36,743 nt of DNA. Source: a virus. The position numbers were made by a program, and so were the translations under genes. The notes beneath the pieces were generated by a model that ran no database searches, was not told the DNA's origin, and saw only the letters and a program-made list of their open reading frames with translations. Within the stretch, counting starts at the first letter, position 1, and each line of letters begins with the position of its first letter. The stretch lies in the IMG/VR virus record IMGVR_UViG_3300042402_006430, positions 1 through 36,743 of that record; one strand, written 5' to 3'. Below, piece by piece: positions 264-9,958 of this stretch.

Positions 264-1586
264 TTATTCAAAATCTTTAAGACTAAAGACATTTGATTTT
301 TCATCAATGTAATTTTTAACTCCACCTTCTGTTAAGAACCAATGCCATTTTTCAGGATGCAATGGTTTCACTTGATTTCCATAACCATCTGTTAAAATCC
401 AAACAGAGTTAGGATATTTAACATCTTCATTTTGCATAGTTCTTTGAATATATTGTTCAATGATGCTGAAAGAAGTGCCTCCGCCTCCATATATCTTTCT
501 TTCTTTTAAGTTGGTTTCTTGCACATTCGTATCAAAGCAAAATAGTCTTACATTGAATCTTGTTTCTGGCAAAGATTCAGCAGCAGCAAAAAACCTATCT
601 TTTAGATTCCAGCATGATCCTGATGTATCTAAAAAGAACCAAACATTGATTTTATGTTCATCGTAAGTGCGATCATCTATTTCCATTTCTGATGGTATGA
701 TCATATTTCTTGGAAGCATGGTCATGCGTCTGTTTATTCTTGCCCATTGTTCAAATTCTTTGTTTTCATCTTTGAAAAACTTTAAGGCCCAACGCTTGAT
801 AACTGTTTCCCATTTTTTAAGCTTCTTTGCTTTTTTATCACCTGCAAAAACCCAAATTCCTCCAGATCCGGAACCTGCTGGTGTATTTTTATCTGATTCT
901 TTAGGTTGACCATCTTGTGGTTTCTTTTTCTGAAAATGCTTGCTAATTGTTGATTTAAGGCCTTCCTTTTCTTCGTCTGAAAGACCTTCGTTTAACTGGT
1001 CAATTACTTTGTCCCAATTAACAGATTGAGATCCAAGTGATTCATGATCATCAACAGTTTGAGGCCCTCCTCCTTCACCATCTCCCATTCCACCGTGACC
1101 ATAGACTTTTTCAAAAAGATTATAATAGAATTCAAACATTTCGTTGCTTGATGGCATAGGATTGCGATCTTTGAAAACAGTATCGACCCAACAATAATCT
1201 TCTGAACCAGTTATTTTATCACGAGAGAAACCAAAATTTTTCGTTAGTGTATGGTTTACCACAATGTCCATAGCAACATTGGTGGCTTGCCTATTGCAGT
1301 CTGCTTCCTTTGCTCTAATGCCATGATTCAAAACAATATGAAGAGCCTCGTGACATATAACAAAAAGCTTATTGTATAAATCTAGGCTGCTCCAAAACTT
1401 TGGATTAAACCTAAAGAGAATAAATTTCCCTTCTTGATCAAATTGAACACATGCAGTGTCAATTGATTCGTCAAATACAGGACGACCCATTTGCCAGACT
1501 TTATAAAAGACGGCATGGTGTGGCTCAAGAGAGTTTGATATTTCAAGCCACTCTTCGTTTCCAATTTTATATTTTGAGGAAATCAT
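264..1586 (-). CDS. Metallopeptidase-like VWA protein (DUF2201-type), partner of a MoxR ATPase
   Basis: 440 aa. The N-terminal half holds HEALH (residues 79-83), an HExxH zinc motif, followed by a conserved-looking NVAMDIVVNH helix. A low-complexity Gly/Asp/Lys linker (about 160-250) leads to a VWA-like C-terminal domain with a DTSGS metal-binding motif (320-324), GGGGTSF (367-373) and LTDG (398-401). This two-part layout is that of DUF2201 putative metallopeptidases, which usually pair with MoxR-family ATPases. The start overlaps the stop of the upstream ATPase gene by 4 bp (ATGA), implying translational coupling. By analogy with MoxR-VWA pairs such as RavA-ViaA, the two may form a chaperone-like or metal-insertion machine. 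The role in a phage is unknown. Confidence 0.8.
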   Translation of the reverse strand: MISSKYKIGNEEWLEISNSLEPHHAVFYKVWQMGRPVFDESIDTACVQFDQEGKFILFRFNPKFWSSLDLYNKLFVICHEALHIVLNHGIRAKEADCNRQATNVAMDIVVNHTLTKNFGFSRDKITGSEDYCWVDTVFKDRNPMPSSNEMFEFYYNLFEKVYGHGGMGDGEGGGPQTVDDHESLGSQSVNWDKVIDQLNEGLSDEEKEGLKSTISKHFQKKKPQDGQPKESDKNTPAGSGSGGIWVFAGDKKAKKLKKWETVIKRWALKFFKDENKEFEQWARINRRMTMLPRNMIIPSEMEIDDRTYDEHKINVWFFLDTSGSCWNLKDRFFAAAESLPETRFNVRLFCFDTNVQETNLKERKIYGGGGTSFSIIEQYIQRTMQNEDVKYPNSVWILTDGYGNQVKPLHPEKWHWFLTEGGVKNYIDEKSNVFSLKDFE

Positions 1587-3223
1587 TTGGCAATTCCTGA
1601 AAAGTCATCAGAAGGAATCTTCCAATTCATGTCAGTTTGAACAATTTTTTTGAAAATTTCATAAGATTTTATATCGTAATTATTCATAATTTCAGTAAGT
1701 GTCAGATTCTTCTCTTTGTGAATTTGAATGAGACAATGATTAATGATTCCAAAAAGCTTATCAAAGCTTGGGTCAAGCATGATTGATGTAAAAAGCCATT
1801 TATCTTTTTGATTGTTTGTAAAAGCATTATCTGTATTGCCAAATATTTCGTTCAGAAGTTTTAGTGTAGCCAAAGCTTCTTCTGCTGTTATTTTTTCTGG
1901 AATAGATTTTACAATTTTTTCGTAAATGGCAATTCTTTGAGGGCCGCTATCGATAGCCATAGAATTCAATTGAATTAGCTCTGCATCCCAATTAATCTTA
2001 CGCTTGTTGAAATAAGGAGCAATAGATTTTTTTGGAATTACAAGAACGTCTTGTGCAAAAGCTTTGGCTAGGTTCTCATCTTCAGTCAAAGCTCTACGAA
2101 TCTTTTTCACTAAGCTAGCATCAAGATTGGCATTCATAACTTGCTTGCTTATCTTATGAAAAGATGGAATTTTATCAATATTTTTGATAATATGATTGCA
2201 TATTTTATCGTCTGTTGCCATGAGACTTGCAATCTTTTCTTGAGGCATCAAGGGAACAAAATATTCAAGAAGAGTTACTGATTGCACAATAAACTTAATT
2301 GATGCTGAAAAATTATTTTCATTTTCAAGAAACTTAGAGGCAGCACTTTGATCTTTGTTTTTGAATAGTTCTTCAATTTGTTCGGTGATTGGTCCGTTTT
2401 TAAGAGATGTAATAAGCTTGCCTACATTACTGGCAGTGGGCAATACATCACGAATGTCACCTTTTTTGGAAAACATATCAAGTGCGTATTGAAGCCTTCT
2501 GGGACTTACAGTGTTTTTCACTTCTTCGCTAAGATCATCCCACCACTGAATTGCTGAGTCAGCAAATCTCTGACCATATTTCTCACGGAACCACTCTGCG
2601 TTGGGCTTATAGGGGATAGGAATGGAGCAATGAAAGCGATCAAGGTGTGCAGGATCACAAACTTCTACATCATATTTCAGTAGTTCGTCGTCATCTGGAT
2701 TAATTGCACACCAAACGAAACGAAGGTTGGGAAACTTGTGACCATTTACGCTGCCGAATTGAATCAATTCCATTACAGCGTTTCTAATCTTTTTGGGGCT
2801 TCTGTTGAACTCATCGAAAAATAAAGCTTCCACTTCTCCTGTGGCAAAGCTGAATGGTCTAATCAATTCAAGATATGTTGTGCTAGCAGGTTTAGATGCG
2901 TGTTGAATAACTTCATTTGCGGAATCAGCGTCAAGTTTCCAGTTTTGCATCACATAAGAAATTGCAATTTGCTGATTAATTTTGGCTAATTCACGGATGG
3001 TCAAGAAGCTCTCTGGCATGACATCTTCTGTCTTTTCACGGGGAACACCAATGAAATCGACCCATGGGTCCATAGTTGATGCAGAGAAATAACGCCATTT
3101 AAGTTGGTGTCGATCAAATGCTTCTTTGATAATTGCTGTTTTGCCAACACCGTGACGACCAACAAACATGATGTTGTAGTTGTTGTTGATCCAAAAATCA
3201 ATCTTGGCTGATGAAACGCTCAT
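1583..3223 (-). CDS. MoxR-like AAA+ ATPase
   Basis: 546 aa. Walker A is GRHGVGKT (residues 22-29). Walker B is EALFFDEFNR (about 132-141), followed by an AAA-type sensor region around FVWCAINPDD and an arginine-containing segment, DPAHLDRFHCSIPIPY. The first 300 residues form the AAA core; the remaining 250 are helical and have no domain I recognise. MoxR ATPases act with VWA-domain partners to remodel or activate client proteins, and the 4-bp overlap with the VWA/metallopeptidase gene fits this. Start is the ATG at 3223; upstream there is only a weak AAGG-type site. Confidence in the ATPase class is high; the client is unknown. Confidence 0.85.
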   Translation of the reverse strand: MSVSSAKIDFWINNNYNIMFVGRHGVGKTAIIKEAFDRHQLKWRYFSASTMDPWVDFIGVPREKTEDVMPESFLTIRELAKINQQIAISYVMQNWKLDADSANEVIQHASKPASTTYLELIRPFSFATGEVEALFFDEFNRSPKKIRNAVMELIQFGSVNGHKFPNLRFVWCAINPDDDELLKYDVEVCDPAHLDRFHCSIPIPYKPNAEWFREKYGQRFADSAIQWWDDLSEEVKNTVSPRRLQYALDMFSKKGDIRDVLPTASNVGKLITSLKNGPITEQIEELFKNKDQSAASKFLENENNFSASIKFIVQSVTLLEYFVPLMPQEKIASLMATDDKICNHIIKNIDKIPSFHKISKQVMNANLDASLVKKIRRALTEDENLAKAFAQDVLVIPKKSIAPYFNKRKINWDAELIQLNSMAIDSGPQRIAIYEKIVKSIPEKITAEEALATLKLLNEIFGNTDNAFTNNQKDKWLFTSIMLDPSFDKLFGIINHCLIQIHKEKNLTLTEIMNNYDIKSYEIFKKIVQTDMNWKIPSDDFSGIAK

Positions 3224-3275: not shown

Positions 3276-4016
3276 TTAGGAGTAAATCTGAAGAGCGTAT
3301 TTTTCAGAAATATAGGTGTTTTCGCCAGCAACTGTTTCAAACCAGATGTTGTAAATTCCTTCATCCAATTGAGTTGTGTCTAAAAACCAATAAGCATAGC
3401 TATCTTGCCTATATTCCACAAGGTGCCGATCAACGACGAGTCGGAGATCAGTCTCTGCGGGTACACATTCACCGCAGGATATCTCCATAGATACTCTTAT
3501 GTCGGAGACTATGGCAAGATTATCATAATAAGATACAAGATCAGCACCTTGAGGAACATTAGGAGTCACTTTAATAAGAACATAACGCTTAGATCCCTTT
3601 CTAATTCGATTGGGCCTGAATTGAAAATTGAAGTCATATATTATTGGACTGGAACTTGTAAACCAAAGATCTGGAGCAATTTGGAACGTATTTCTTACTT
3701 CAGCTTCGGCACATTCGCCTGATTCAAATGTAACGCTCCACAAGTCATAATATGTACCAATTCCATAAATTTCTGGATCAAGGTAAACAGAAAGGACATA
3801 TTCTCCTGTTTTAGCCAATTCAACAGAAGAACCAGAAATAGTTTGAACTAAACGTAATCCTTCAGGATTTGATGCGTCTTTAAGAGCGTCATCAATGACA
3901 TAAATTTTAATTTCATTTATTGTTCTAACATTTGTCAAACTATTAGCATTGTATGTGAAAAGACGCAGATTGACTGTGTCGCCACAAACAGGCTTCTGGT
4001 AGCGTTCTTTTGCCAT
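3276..4016 (-). CDS. Beta-rich probable virion structural protein
   Basis: 246 aa, no family recognised. The sequence alternates beta-strand-like segments with few helices, for example YVLSVYLDPEIYGIGTYYDL and SYAYWFLDTTQLDEGIYNIW. These look like two or three Ig-like or fibre-type beta-sandwich repeats. Two Cys pairs are visible (GECAEAE and CGECVP). The start ATG follows a GAGG site, and the stop of the frameshifted gp26 extension lies 3 bases upstream, so the gene is tightly coupled to the tail assembly gene. That context suggests a baseplate or tail accessory protein. This is inference only. Confidence 0.7.
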   Translation of the reverse strand: MAKERYQKPVCGDTVNLRLFTYNANSLTNVRTINEIKIYVIDDALKDASNPEGLRLVQTISGSSVELAKTGEYVLSVYLDPEIYGIGTYYDLWSVTFESGECAEAEVRNTFQIAPDLWFTSSSPIIYDFNFQFRPNRIRKGSKRYVLIKVTPNVPQGADLVSYYDNLAIVSDIRVSMEISCGECVPAETDLRLVVDRHLVEYRQDSYAYWFLDTTQLDEGIYNIWFETVAGENTYISEKYALQIYS

Positions 4017-4019
4017 TCT

Positions 4020-5326
4020 TTACCTCGATCTTTGGTTGGCCTTCTTCTGCTGTGCTTCCATGGACTTATTTTCATTCTCTTTTTGTTGAATGAATCTTTC
4101 GATCATCCATTTTCTGAGATTGATTGGAAGGCTCATGGAGCCTGACATATCCAAGTGCATATGATATTGGAAGAAAAATATTTCTTCCGCCAATTGCTCC
4201 CAAATTGTTATGCTTGGGTCTTGGCCCTCTTGCGACGAGGGAAGAAAAAATTTGCCTCCAATGGCAGATCGAGACTAAACTCTGCCAAGCAGCTTGGGCA
4301 AACAATCTCTACATTTGTATCCACGCCGAATGGTGGCTCGTTGAGAAGGTTGCGAATGTGAGAAACATCATTGATTGGAAGGTTCTTGAGCAATATTTGA
4401 AGTTCTGACTTATCAGTGATTCCATCAATATCGTTCAAAAGTTGAGCAGTGCGATAGGTAAGAGTGTCATCTACGCCACTATCGCCAAATGCCTTGATTC
4501 GTCGATCACGATGGTCCTGAATTTCCTGTTCGTCACGACCTGTTGAAAATCGATAACTGAAAGGAAGCTTGGATGTCGGAAGAACATCACGAAGTTCAGG
4601 ACCATAATCATTCGGAGCGTATTCAACAAAGAGACTGTTCAAATCAATGCTTGTGCTGAACTTTGTTTCACACTCTGGACACTTGATTTCAACATCATAG
4701 CTTGGTCCATAGGAAATACCACGAAGATAAATGAGAAGATAAGTGCGGTCAATTGTAAGAAGATTTTCTGGTCGAATGCCTTCTTTAAGGCACTTTTGGA
4801 AAATCATGTTGATCGCTTGACCCTTCTTGACAAATCTTGGAGTAGCAAGAATTTGTTCTTCTTCTCCAGTCATGGGTCTAATTGAAACAATACCATTTGC
4901 TGGCCCATCTTCGCCATTGTAGAACCTTCCCTTTGATGGAAGCTCAATCTCTTCATAAATGGTTGTCGATCCACGAAGACCCTCAAGAAGCTCTTTCAAG
5001 TGACCAGAAGAAGAGGCAAGCTTGTTGCTTGGAGGAGAATAAGTTGGAGATTCTCCTCCTGCACTCATAGTTCCAAAACCACGCTTGGATTGTTGTGGTT
5101 GAGGCGGATTTTTTGCAGCAGCAAGAGCAGCAGCAAAAGCAGGAGGGATATTGCCTTGAATATCGAGGCCGCTTGGCATGTCGTTAGGACGACCTGAAGT
5201 TTCCTGATTGGCCTGCTGACGAAACTGATTAACTGAATCAAGTGGATTACTCACATTACTCTCCTGATTTGATGCTGGTGCTTCATTAGTGCTTGGTCTT
5301 CTGATACGAAAATTTTCGTCTGTCAT
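4020..5326 (-). CDS. Predicted -1 frameshift product: gp26-like protein plus 74-aa tail chaperone-like extension
   Basis: At minus-strand bases 4250-4244 the message reads T TTT TTC in the zero frame (codons Phe360-Phe361), just after an overlapping A AAT TTT. A -1 slip gives a 435-aa product whose last 74 residues begin LPSSQEGQDPSITIWEQL and include LPINLRKWMIERFIQQ. This extension ORF has no ATG before codon 29, occupies the otherwise unexplained 4020-4207 gap, ends 3 bases before the next start, and reads like real protein. The arrangement copies the G/GT tail assembly chaperone frameshift known in lambda and many other tailed phages. Not seen directly: a downstream stimulatory structure. 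Alternatives are an independent 46-aa ORF from the ATG at codon 29, or a non-ATG start. Confidence 0.65.
4208..5326 (-). CDS. gp26: gp26-like baseplate/tail assembly protein (zero-frame product)
   Basis: 372 aa. After a disordered Gln/Asn/Pro-rich N-terminus (1-120), the core begins IELPSKGRFYNG and runs through VSIRPMTGEEEQIL. This pattern matches the T4 baseplate family (PF12322, T4 gp26). Two CxxC knuckles, CPEC (216-219) and CPSC (343-346), suggest one zinc ribbon per half. The start ATG is preceded by GCGGAGTAAAAA. The last 12 codons after the slippery run encode a basic tail (FPRRKRAKTQA). Near its end the frame crosses a T TTT TTC heptamer that appears to direct -1 frameshifting into the next ORF; see the separate entry. 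T4 gp26 is about 208 aa, so this one has a long N-terminal extension. Confidence 0.8.
   Translation of the reverse strand: MTDENFRIRRPSTNEAPASNQESNVSNPLDSVNQFRQQANQETSGRPNDMPSGLDIQGNIPPAFAAALAAAKNPPQPQQSKRGFGTMSAGGESPTYSPPSNKLASSSGHLKELLEGLRGSTTIYEEIELPSKGRFYNGEDGPANGIVSIRPMTGEEEQILATPRFVKKGQAINMIFQKCLKEGIRPENLLTIDRTYLLIYLRGISYGPSYDVEIKCPECETKFSTSIDLNSLFVEYAPNDYGPELRDVLPTSKLPFSYRFSTGRDEQEIQDHRDRRIKAFGDSGVDDTLTYRTAQLLNDIDGITDKSELQILLKNLPINDVSHIRNLLNEPPFGVDTNVEIVCPSCLAEFSLDLPLEANFFFPRRKRAKTQA
4244..4253 (-). promoter_or_regulatory. Slippery sequence for -1 frameshift
   Basis: Reading the minus strand, AAATTTTTTC contains two overlapping X XXY YYZ heptamers in the gp26 frame: A AAT TTT and T TTT TTC. 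Both allow tandem re-pairing one base back. It lies 12 codons before the zero-frame stop, a usual position for tail assembly chaperone frameshifts. Confidence 0.65.
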
Positions 5327-8540: not shown

Positions 8541-8801
8541 ATGATAAAGCAAGGTAGAAGTCTATTTGATCAGATCGAAAATCAAGAACTTATACAAAAA
8601 CTTATTGATAGCGGACACAGCAAACTTGTTGATGCTTTTTTATTGCATGATGCCAAAGTATATACAAAAAAAGGCCGTCTAAACAAAAGCGGGGCTTGCA
8701 GAGTATTAAAATGCAAGCCAAAAGAACTTGAAGATGCAATTAAAGCCTGCCAAGAACTTTTGAAGGCAGAGCTTAAAGTCGAAGATTCAGGCGAAGATTA
8801 A
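8541..8801 (+). CDS. Small helix-turn-helix-like protein, possible gp33-type co-activator
   Basis: 86 aa from ATG 8541; an in-frame TTG nine bases upstream is a less likely start. It is helical throughout. The segment KKGRLNKSGACRVLKCKPKE followed by LEDAIKACQELL has the spacing of a helix-turn-helix. It lies directly after the late sigma factor but has its own strong sigma-70 promoter. In T4-like phages the partner of gp55 is the small protein gp33, so a co-activator role is possible. The sequence itself does not match what I remember of T4 gp33, so this is inference from position. It converges on the tail tube paralogue, with stops overlapping by 4 bases. Confidence 0.6.
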   Translation: MIKQGRSLFDQIENQELIQKLIDSGHSKLVDAFLLHDAKVYTKKGRLNKSGACRVLKCKPKELEDAIKACQELLKAELKVEDSGED

Positions 8802-9301
8802 AATAGATAAGTAGCTCTATCGTATCTTAAAGTAAGATCAACAGTTACGACTTCACTGCTTCCCATGTCCAAGTCTCCAAATGAAATATCTTGACACCAA
8901 ACAGATTCAAGGAACCAAGTTTCAAGTTCCCCACCTATTCCATCATATAAAGTTAATCGAGCTTCAGGTTTTTTGAATCCAACTGAATATTTTAATTCAG
9001 CATTTTCAACATCATAATATGAATAAATCCACTCCCAAAGTTTGTGTTGCGGCTTATAAATGTCATATAATGTCAACGTAACTGATTTCCATTCTGGTTT
9101 TCCCGGATAATAAACGGTTTCAGTCATGTGTTCCATGCTTAATTCTTTGAAAGAAAGAGAAGGTCTAGATGCTTTTGATGGTGGTAAAGCATTGATTCCT
9201 TCTGCGCTTACCTCTGGAATCGTAAAAAGCCAACGGTTTTTTCTTTTGAAACAACCATCCCTTAATCCAAAACTATCACCCCATCCCATTTGCTGACCCA
9301 T
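8798..9301 (-). CDS. gp19-type tail tube paralogue
   Basis: 167 aa. The pattern FKRKNRWLFTIPEV, RPSLSFKEL, YYPGKPEWKSVTLTLYDI, LTLYDGIGGELETWFLESVW and DLDMGSSEVVTVDLTLRYD is that of the T4 gp19 tube family (PF06841). It is clearly related to the neighbouring 9374-9958 product. Because a terminator separates the two genes and the sequences differ strongly, this copy may be a specialised tube ring (initiator, baseplate junction or terminator) instead of the bulk tube subunit. The ribosome binding site is GAGGTGTAA. Confidence 0.8.
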   Translation of the reverse strand: MGQQMGWGDSFGLRDGCFKRKNRWLFTIPEVSAEGINALPPSKASRPSLSFKELSMEHMTETVYYPGKPEWKSVTLTLYDIYKPQHKLWEWIYSYYDVENAELKYSVGFKKPEARLTLYDGIGGELETWFLESVWCQDISFGDLDMGSSEVVTVDLTLRYDRATYLF

Positions 9302-9316
9302 TTACACCTCTACAAA

Positions 9317-9345
9317 TAAAAAAGCCTCGTATTATATACGAGGCT
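9317..9345 (-). terminator. Rho-independent terminator after the major tail tube gene
   Basis: A perfect 9-bp stem (AGCCTCGTA / TACGAGGCT, 9323-9331 and 9337-9345) with a 5-base loop is followed on the minus strand by a run of T residues. It would end transcripts of the 9374-9958 gene before the second tube gene. Confidence 0.85.
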
Positions 9346-9373
9346 CAAAATTGAAATTTTATTTTTAATTTTA

Positions 9374-9958
9374 TTAAGAACAGCCCTTTTGCAGGTTTTG
9401 GCGTATTCCTCCAATACCGCAAGTAGGTGTCCATTTAGCTTCACTAAATCTCAGAGTAAGATCTAGAGTCGCTACGTCTGAAGAACCGTAATCAAGGTCG
9501 CCGAAGTTGATTGCAGCTGGCCAAAGATTCTTAAGACTCCAGTTTTCCATTTCTGCGCCTGTACCATCATACATGGTGAGAACTCCGCTACCAGCCCAAC
9601 CTGTTCCGGTTCCGTCTTCACCTCTGATAGATGTTTGCTTAAGAGTAACCGGATCAGAAAAGTTATAAACTGTAGTGAGCCATTCCCATAGACCTACCAT
9701 ACCAGTAGCGCCTGCTCCGCCCATGTCGTAGTAACTTACAGTCAATGTTTCCCAAGTACCTTTACCGGGAATCCACATTTTCCCATGCAGATAATTAATT
9801 TCAGTCTGCTCGATTGAAAGGTTAGGACGATTTGCAACCTTTACGAATGCGGTAGGAATATCCTTCCCACCCCATCTTACGGCGAAAGTCCATCGGTACT
9901 TTCTTTTGAAAACAATATTGCTTCCGCCGATTGTACCTAATCCCATGTCTAATGCCAT
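9374..9958 (-). CDS. gp19: Tail tube protein gp19
   Basis: 194 aa, gp19 family. FKRKYRWTFAVRWGGK near the N-terminus, IPGKGTWETLTVSYYDMG in the middle, and GDLDYGSSDVATLDLTLRFS near the end are the typical tube-fold segments. It follows the sheath gene by 33 bases, the gp18-gp19 order of T4-like phages, with a strong AAAGGAG site, and is closed by a terminator. This makes it the best candidate for the bulk inner-tube subunit. The inserted loop around GEDGTGTGWAGSG is Gly-rich and absent from the other paralogue. Confidence 0.85.
   Translation of the reverse strand: MALDMGLGTIGGSNIVFKRKYRWTFAVRWGGKDIPTAFVKVANRPNLSIEQTEINYLHGKMWIPGKGTWETLTVSYYDMGGAGATGMVGLWEWLTTVYNFSDPVTLKQTSIRGEDGTGTGWAGSGVLTMYDGTGAEMENWSLKNLWPAAINFGDLDYGSSDVATLDLTLRFSEAKWTPTCGIGGIRQNLQKGCS

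Follow-up and report, generated by a model that had tools for sequence, protein, structure and literature searches.

A phage gene labelled as a baseplate component is almost certainly a tail-assembly chaperone with two reading modes at one slippery site

We conclude that a gp26-like gene, a member of a family long labelled as part of the baseplate, is almost certainly a tail-building chaperone with two reading modes at a single slippery spot. The gene lies in a 36,743-nucleotide stretch of viral DNA (IMG/VR record IMGVR_UViG_3300042402_006430), which is referred to here as the window. We put at roughly 0.9 the probability that a -1 slip on T_TTT_TTC yields a 372-aa short form from most ribosomes and a 435-aa long form of the chaperone from a minority, with roles like those of the lambda G and GT proteins. 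Comparison of sequences establishes the site, its exceptional codon conservation, a conserved and homologous extension that lacks a separate start, a predicted fold like that of a chaperone, and the position of the gene in relatives; we infer the slippage itself, its rate, the binding partners of the two forms and their absence from the virion. The features of the locus are as follows.

5326-4208, minus strand: gp26-like gene (PF12322 T4_baseplate / phrog_150) for the putative short form, TAC-N (G-like), 372 aa; Pfam E 2e-19, PHROG E 2e-23, 59 IMG/VR relatives
4603-4334, minus strand: predicted tail-assembly-chaperone-like fold, residues 242-331 (AlphaFold2 and VIA-align)
4253-4247, minus strand: upstream overlapping heptamer A_AAT_TTT, in phase; present in 33 of 39 distinct relatives
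4250-4244, minus strand: core slippery heptamer T_TTT_TTC, in phase; kept throughout the window clade
4243-4208, minus strand: zero-frame tail, read only without a shift; 11 sense codons and TAA (4210-4208)
4244-4020, minus strand: -1 frame extension, T-like domain; 74 codons (4244-4023) and TAA (4022-4020); kept in 39 of 39 distinct relatives
4016-3276, minus strand: next gene, 246 aa, without a family match; its ATG, at 4016, lies three bases past the TAA of the extension

The gp26-like protein scores 70.6 bits against the PF12322 profile, above the family cut-off of 24.5. At the slip site the codons of the minus strand read GCA AAT TTT TTC TTC CCT, and when C4244 is read twice the 74-codon -1 frame (LPSSQEG...QRSR) is entered, giving a fusion of 435 aa. 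The first ATG of the extension is its codon 29, and a TTG is found at about codon 18. The initial annotation had placed both heptamers in phase ahead of the gp26-like stop, followed by a 74-codon -1 frame with no ATG before codon 29, a stop three bases before the next gene and a 435-aa product; all of these numbers hold, with the positions confirmed on the minus strand. The chance that a random 62-codon frame of this composition is open is p ~0.014, and there are 36 in-phase occurrences of X_XXY_YYZ in the 8,419 codons of the window. The window sequence alone is therefore suggestive, and it is the comparison with relatives that decides. Elsewhere in the window, two tail tube paralogues (phrog_4542) lie side by side at 8798-9958. 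Downstream of the locus, at 264-3223, is a P-loop ATPase paired with a putative metallopeptidase of the DUF2201 type; the pair is conserved in some relatives and has no known tail role.

Relatives were collected by scanning IMG/VR with the zero-frame protein only, the extension forming no part of the query, and 59 loci were recovered. TTTTTTC is in phase 40-52 nt 5' of the stop, together with a -1 extension, in all of these loci except L031, which is cut off, and L060, which is distant. The 595-kb phage LR756511 likewise keeps TTTTTTC and the -1 extension, with GGGTTTTTTC. Across 41 distinct proteins the slip codons do not vary (TTT 41/41, TTC 41/41). Among 116 conserved amino-acid columns only the heptamer's own pair, TTT and TTC, is encoded by one codon in every sequence, the eight other conserved Phe columns showing 51-74% of one codon. 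T_TTT_TTC is taken as the core of the signal because A_AAT_TTT is present in only 33/39. The heptamer and the -1 frame described for the window in the initial annotation are present in all 39 distinct extensions of the window clade, each open in -1 for at least 51 codons beyond the stop, and in most of the clade the next gene starts 2-6 bases 3' of the extension stop. Within the extensions most differences (55%) sit at third codon positions of the -1 frame, a coding-like pattern. The sequence evidence shows that selection acts on both the slip signal and the extension. A downstream stem was also considered as a stimulator in this clade. The structure is weak (mean z ~-1.6 in three windows), and the covariation of one 8-bp long-range stem was reached by 52 of 500 shuffles; since the shuffles match it this often, the stem is not claimed as a stimulator, and the window clade shows no clear one.

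The same arrangement is found outside the window clade. A further search with PF12322 proteins of the SP-15, cyanophage and Microcystis-phage types gave 240 more loci. All 77 distinct extensions of the cyanophage type lie in the -1 frame behind T_TTT_TTC, where the sequence is usually TTT TTC GCN TAG. Fifteen bases 5' of the TTT codon, the cyanophage genes encode a Glu-Gly pair that is written GAG GGN or GAA GGG in 79 of 79 cases, where codon use predicts 36%; that is, a Shine-Dalgarno-like GAGGG or GAAGGG stands ~10 nt upstream of T_TTT_TTC in every one of these gp26 genes (79/79; L104:4637-4690, L189-L268). A Shine-Dalgarno-like element at such a spacing helps -1 slippage. The jumbo phages Atu_ph07, 121Q, PA5oct and XacN1 carry TTTTTTC or TTTTTTT and a -1 extension. 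The gene annotated as 'gp51' in cyanophages is probably a truncated -1 extension. We suggest that, in many genomes, the small 'gp51' and hypothetical genes that follow gp26 (SynMITS9220M01, 121Q, SP-15 gp46, immuto gp38, Atu_ph07) are fragments of frameshift products. In a Deltaproteobacteria MAG (L350:3965-4893) a gp26-like gene with a -1 extension lies directly before a likely tape measure gene; its Phe-Phe site, AAC TTC TTC CTG, has no classic slippery run.

Of the alternatives to a ribosomal frameshift, the one that survives best, although we regard it as very unlikely, is that the extension is a small gene in its own right, translated through re-initiation or coupling downstream of the gp26-like stop (the 'gp51 baseplate hub assembly catalyst' of some cyanophages). 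It is annotated as free-standing in SynMITS9220M01 and 121Q, and a start codon lies near the beginning of the extension in 74 of the 77 cyanophage sequences. In the window clade, however, there is no conserved start: the first possible one falls at a median of codon 27, inside or after conserved residues. A Shine-Dalgarno-like 4-mer accompanies it in just 1/39 extensions of the window clade, and in 0/77 of the cyanophage extensions, compared with 49/58 at the gp26-like gene's own start. These observations indicate that a separate extension gene is unlikely, and such a gene would in addition leave the 100% use of TTT TTC unexplained. The initial annotation had named a free-standing extension with its own start as the arrangement that would count against a frameshift, and no such conserved start is found in the window clade. 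The other such arrangement it had named, relatives in which the slippery run or the -1 frame is not kept, is likewise not seen there.

We also addressed the identity of the protein itself. The AlphaFold2 model of the short form has a pLDDT of 81.7. When Foldseek candidates were re-aligned with VIA-align, the best PDB matches to the subdomain spanning residues 242-331 were YqbN (3klu, Z 6.8), the HK97 tail assembly chaperone (2ob9, Z 5.7) and 5ir0 (Z 4.8), with unrelated chains following from rank 4 onward at Z 2.7 and below. Foldseek alone gave no significant match with the short-form model, and since the Z scores are moderate the chaperone fold is regarded as support, not proof. In phages LIS04 and immuto the PF12322 gene is flanked directly by the annotated genes for tail tube and tape measure, and SP-15 has it between the tube gene and that of a long 'putative tail protein'. 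In the window the gp26-like gene is downstream of the sheath and tube genes; no adjacent tape measure gene was identified there, and none was seen beside the gene in the window clade. The chaperone-like fold and the tube/tape-measure position in relatives therefore argue for a chaperone of the G/GT type (TAC-N/TAC-NC). Two CPxC pairs (residues ~217 and ~345; window 4281-4678, residues 217-348) flank the chaperone-like subdomain and resemble the two halves of a split zinc ribbon. In the fold search these pairs match the zinc ribbon of NrdR, so the chaperone domain may be an insert in a zinc ribbon.

In the lambda model, the short form attaches along the length of the tape measure protein, and the less abundant long form has an added domain that recruits the tail tube protein (PMC5009743). 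For the window gene, we propose that most ribosomes would follow the gp26-like frame to its stop and produce the 372-aa short form, and that a minority would move one base back on T_TTT_TTC, where tRNA-Phe could re-pair in both sites, perhaps assisted by the overlapping A_AAT_TTT. The shifted ribosomes would make the 435-aa long form with its predicted three-helix C-terminal domain, and the slip would thereby set the ratio of short to long. If the two forms behave like lambda G and GT, the short one would serve as a coat on the tape measure protein, the long one would draw in subunits of the tail tube, and both would leave before the tail is complete. The window gene resembles lambda G/GT (Xu et al. 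2004; PMC5009743) in pairing a short with a C-terminally extended protein, in a slip shortly before the first frame ends, in a tube/tape-measure neighbourhood (here in relatives) and in a chaperone-like fold (here predicted). It differs in that its N-terminal protein is of the PF12322 family, is larger and has an apparent split zinc ribbon, and in that the tape measure gene is not adjacent in the window clade. The TAC locus of the Vandenendeviridae (PMC12846349), which shifts by -1 at GTTTTT, is similar in using a run of T and in having its extension in an apparently intergenic gap.

The connection between the gp26 family and tail chaperones, which the initial annotation had put forward as a possibility, is supported by the predicted fold and by the gene position in relatives, but the link itself has a precedent. 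Vladimirov, Gautam and Davidson (2022) are cited as identifying the tail assembly chaperones of T4-like phages, and also for some separate short and long genes and for poly-T -1 signals in these phages (PMC10885494, PMC12846349); as so cited, their work had already proposed the link for T4-like phages. T4 gp26 and gp51, which are hub assembly chaperones (PMC3004832), are both PF12322 proteins and can be aligned to each other (L100:7803-9229). Residues 1-201 of T4 gp51 match PF12322 (E 4e-52); beyond them lies an additional C-terminal tail, which resembles the cyanophage extension (hhalign score 28, against a shuffled maximum of 15). Given this match, the extra tail and the alignment of the two proteins, T4 looks like a case where the short and long forms became two genes, whereas the window has one gene with a frameshift. 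The end of T4 gp26 reads TTC TTT and has no slippery run.

In the SP-15-type and Mel-JY01-type PF12322 groups (129 distinct sequences, among L095-L188 and L269-L348) the extension lies in the opposite frame. At least 45 codons are open in +1 in 64/65 SP-15-type and 64/64 Mel-JY01-type sequences; the corresponding counts for -1 are 1/65 and 2/64. The slip position in these groups was set by rule as the last Phe/Leu pair 5' of the stop, and the sites read TTT TTT TGG CCT, TTC TTT TGG, TTT TTT CGT CCN, TTT CTT TGG and similar, with TTT CGN and CTT TGG also found. The P-site codon and the next base are TTT-T, TTT-C or CTT-T at 128 of the 129 sites, which indicates that the tRNA can re-pair one base forward; the sole exception is LIS04 (TTT AGT). 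For comparison, the base after TTT elsewhere in these genes is T or C about one time in four. A -2 shift is disfavoured in these groups because the upstream codons do not permit re-pairing. In annotated cases, the tape measure gene lies directly downstream of these +1 genes (L095, L096, L098, L099 and L106 among them).

The slip residues align as NFFFP in the window, SFFWP in the Mel type and EFFHA in SP-15, with both Phe invariant in a 38-member alignment. Comparison of the window extensions with those of the SP-15 type by hhalign gave a probability of 98.6, E 1.4e-15 and a score of 78.8 against a shuffled-column maximum of 12.0, and comparison with the Mel type gave E 1.5e-10 and a score of 56.6 against 15.4 for shuffled columns. 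Judged by these profiles, the -1 extension of the window and the +1 extensions of the SP-15 and Mel-JY01 types are homologous. In a tree of the zero-frame domain the groups fall in separate clades, and the AU test (p 0.725) does not reject a topology that unites all +1 rows, so that one change of direction suffices. It is likely that this is one chaperone family with one Phe-Phe position, at which lineages have gone from one direction of shift to the other (-1 or +1) without losing a homologous C-terminal domain, that a few bases appear to determine which direction is taken (-1 for TTT TTC, +1 for TTT followed by TGG or CGN), and that the short/long pair became two genes in T4.

Frameshifting by +1 is known from RF2, at CUU-U. 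A 'very likely +1' frameshift has been reported for the haloarchaeal myovirus HSTV-2 (PMC5009743). The SP-15/Mel-JY01-type sites, with UUU-U, UUU-C or CUU-U, resemble these; unlike in RF2 or HSTV-2, the +1 extension is homologous to the -1 extension of the window clade. The literature searched, with most subscription papers outside its scope, contained no description of the +1 lineages or of a change of direction at one homologous site. The contrast offers a naturally occurring test of what decides which way the ribosome slips.

The broken runs among these sites bear on another alternative, about as unlikely as a free-standing gene, namely that RNA polymerase joins the two frames by slipping on the run of T. 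Most sites do have T6-T7 runs. However, runs of only 6-7 are short for RNA polymerase slippage, and they are kept in codon phase; moreover, 11 of 65 SP-15-type sites read TTC TTT and others CTT TTT or TTT CTT, so that the run is broken yet the extension is the same. That the frame is open by chance, or that an assembly error shifted it, is barely credible: a lone 62-codon open frame has p ~0.014, but the same arrangement recurs, with coding-like substitution, in dozens of distinct contigs (50-99% identity), which already refutes both.

The extension is modelled as a three-helix domain (pLDDT 86.7), and a fold search with this model returned nothing beyond weak hits to viral proteins (E of 1 and above), two of which carry the name tail assembly chaperone. 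By hhalign, the window extension has no significant direct match to the tails of cyanophages, jumbo phages or T4 gp51; the cyanophage and jumbo extensions link to it only via the SP-15 and Mel groups, and the T4 gp51 tail only through the cyanophages. Sequence searches of the PDB returned chance matches only, and no relative was found in plasmid records. A possible cellular relative is DUF6760 (PF20546): no genome bearing it was present among the small genome sets searched, and 14 of 41 extensions match the family at E up to 0.1, the best at 1.2e-4.
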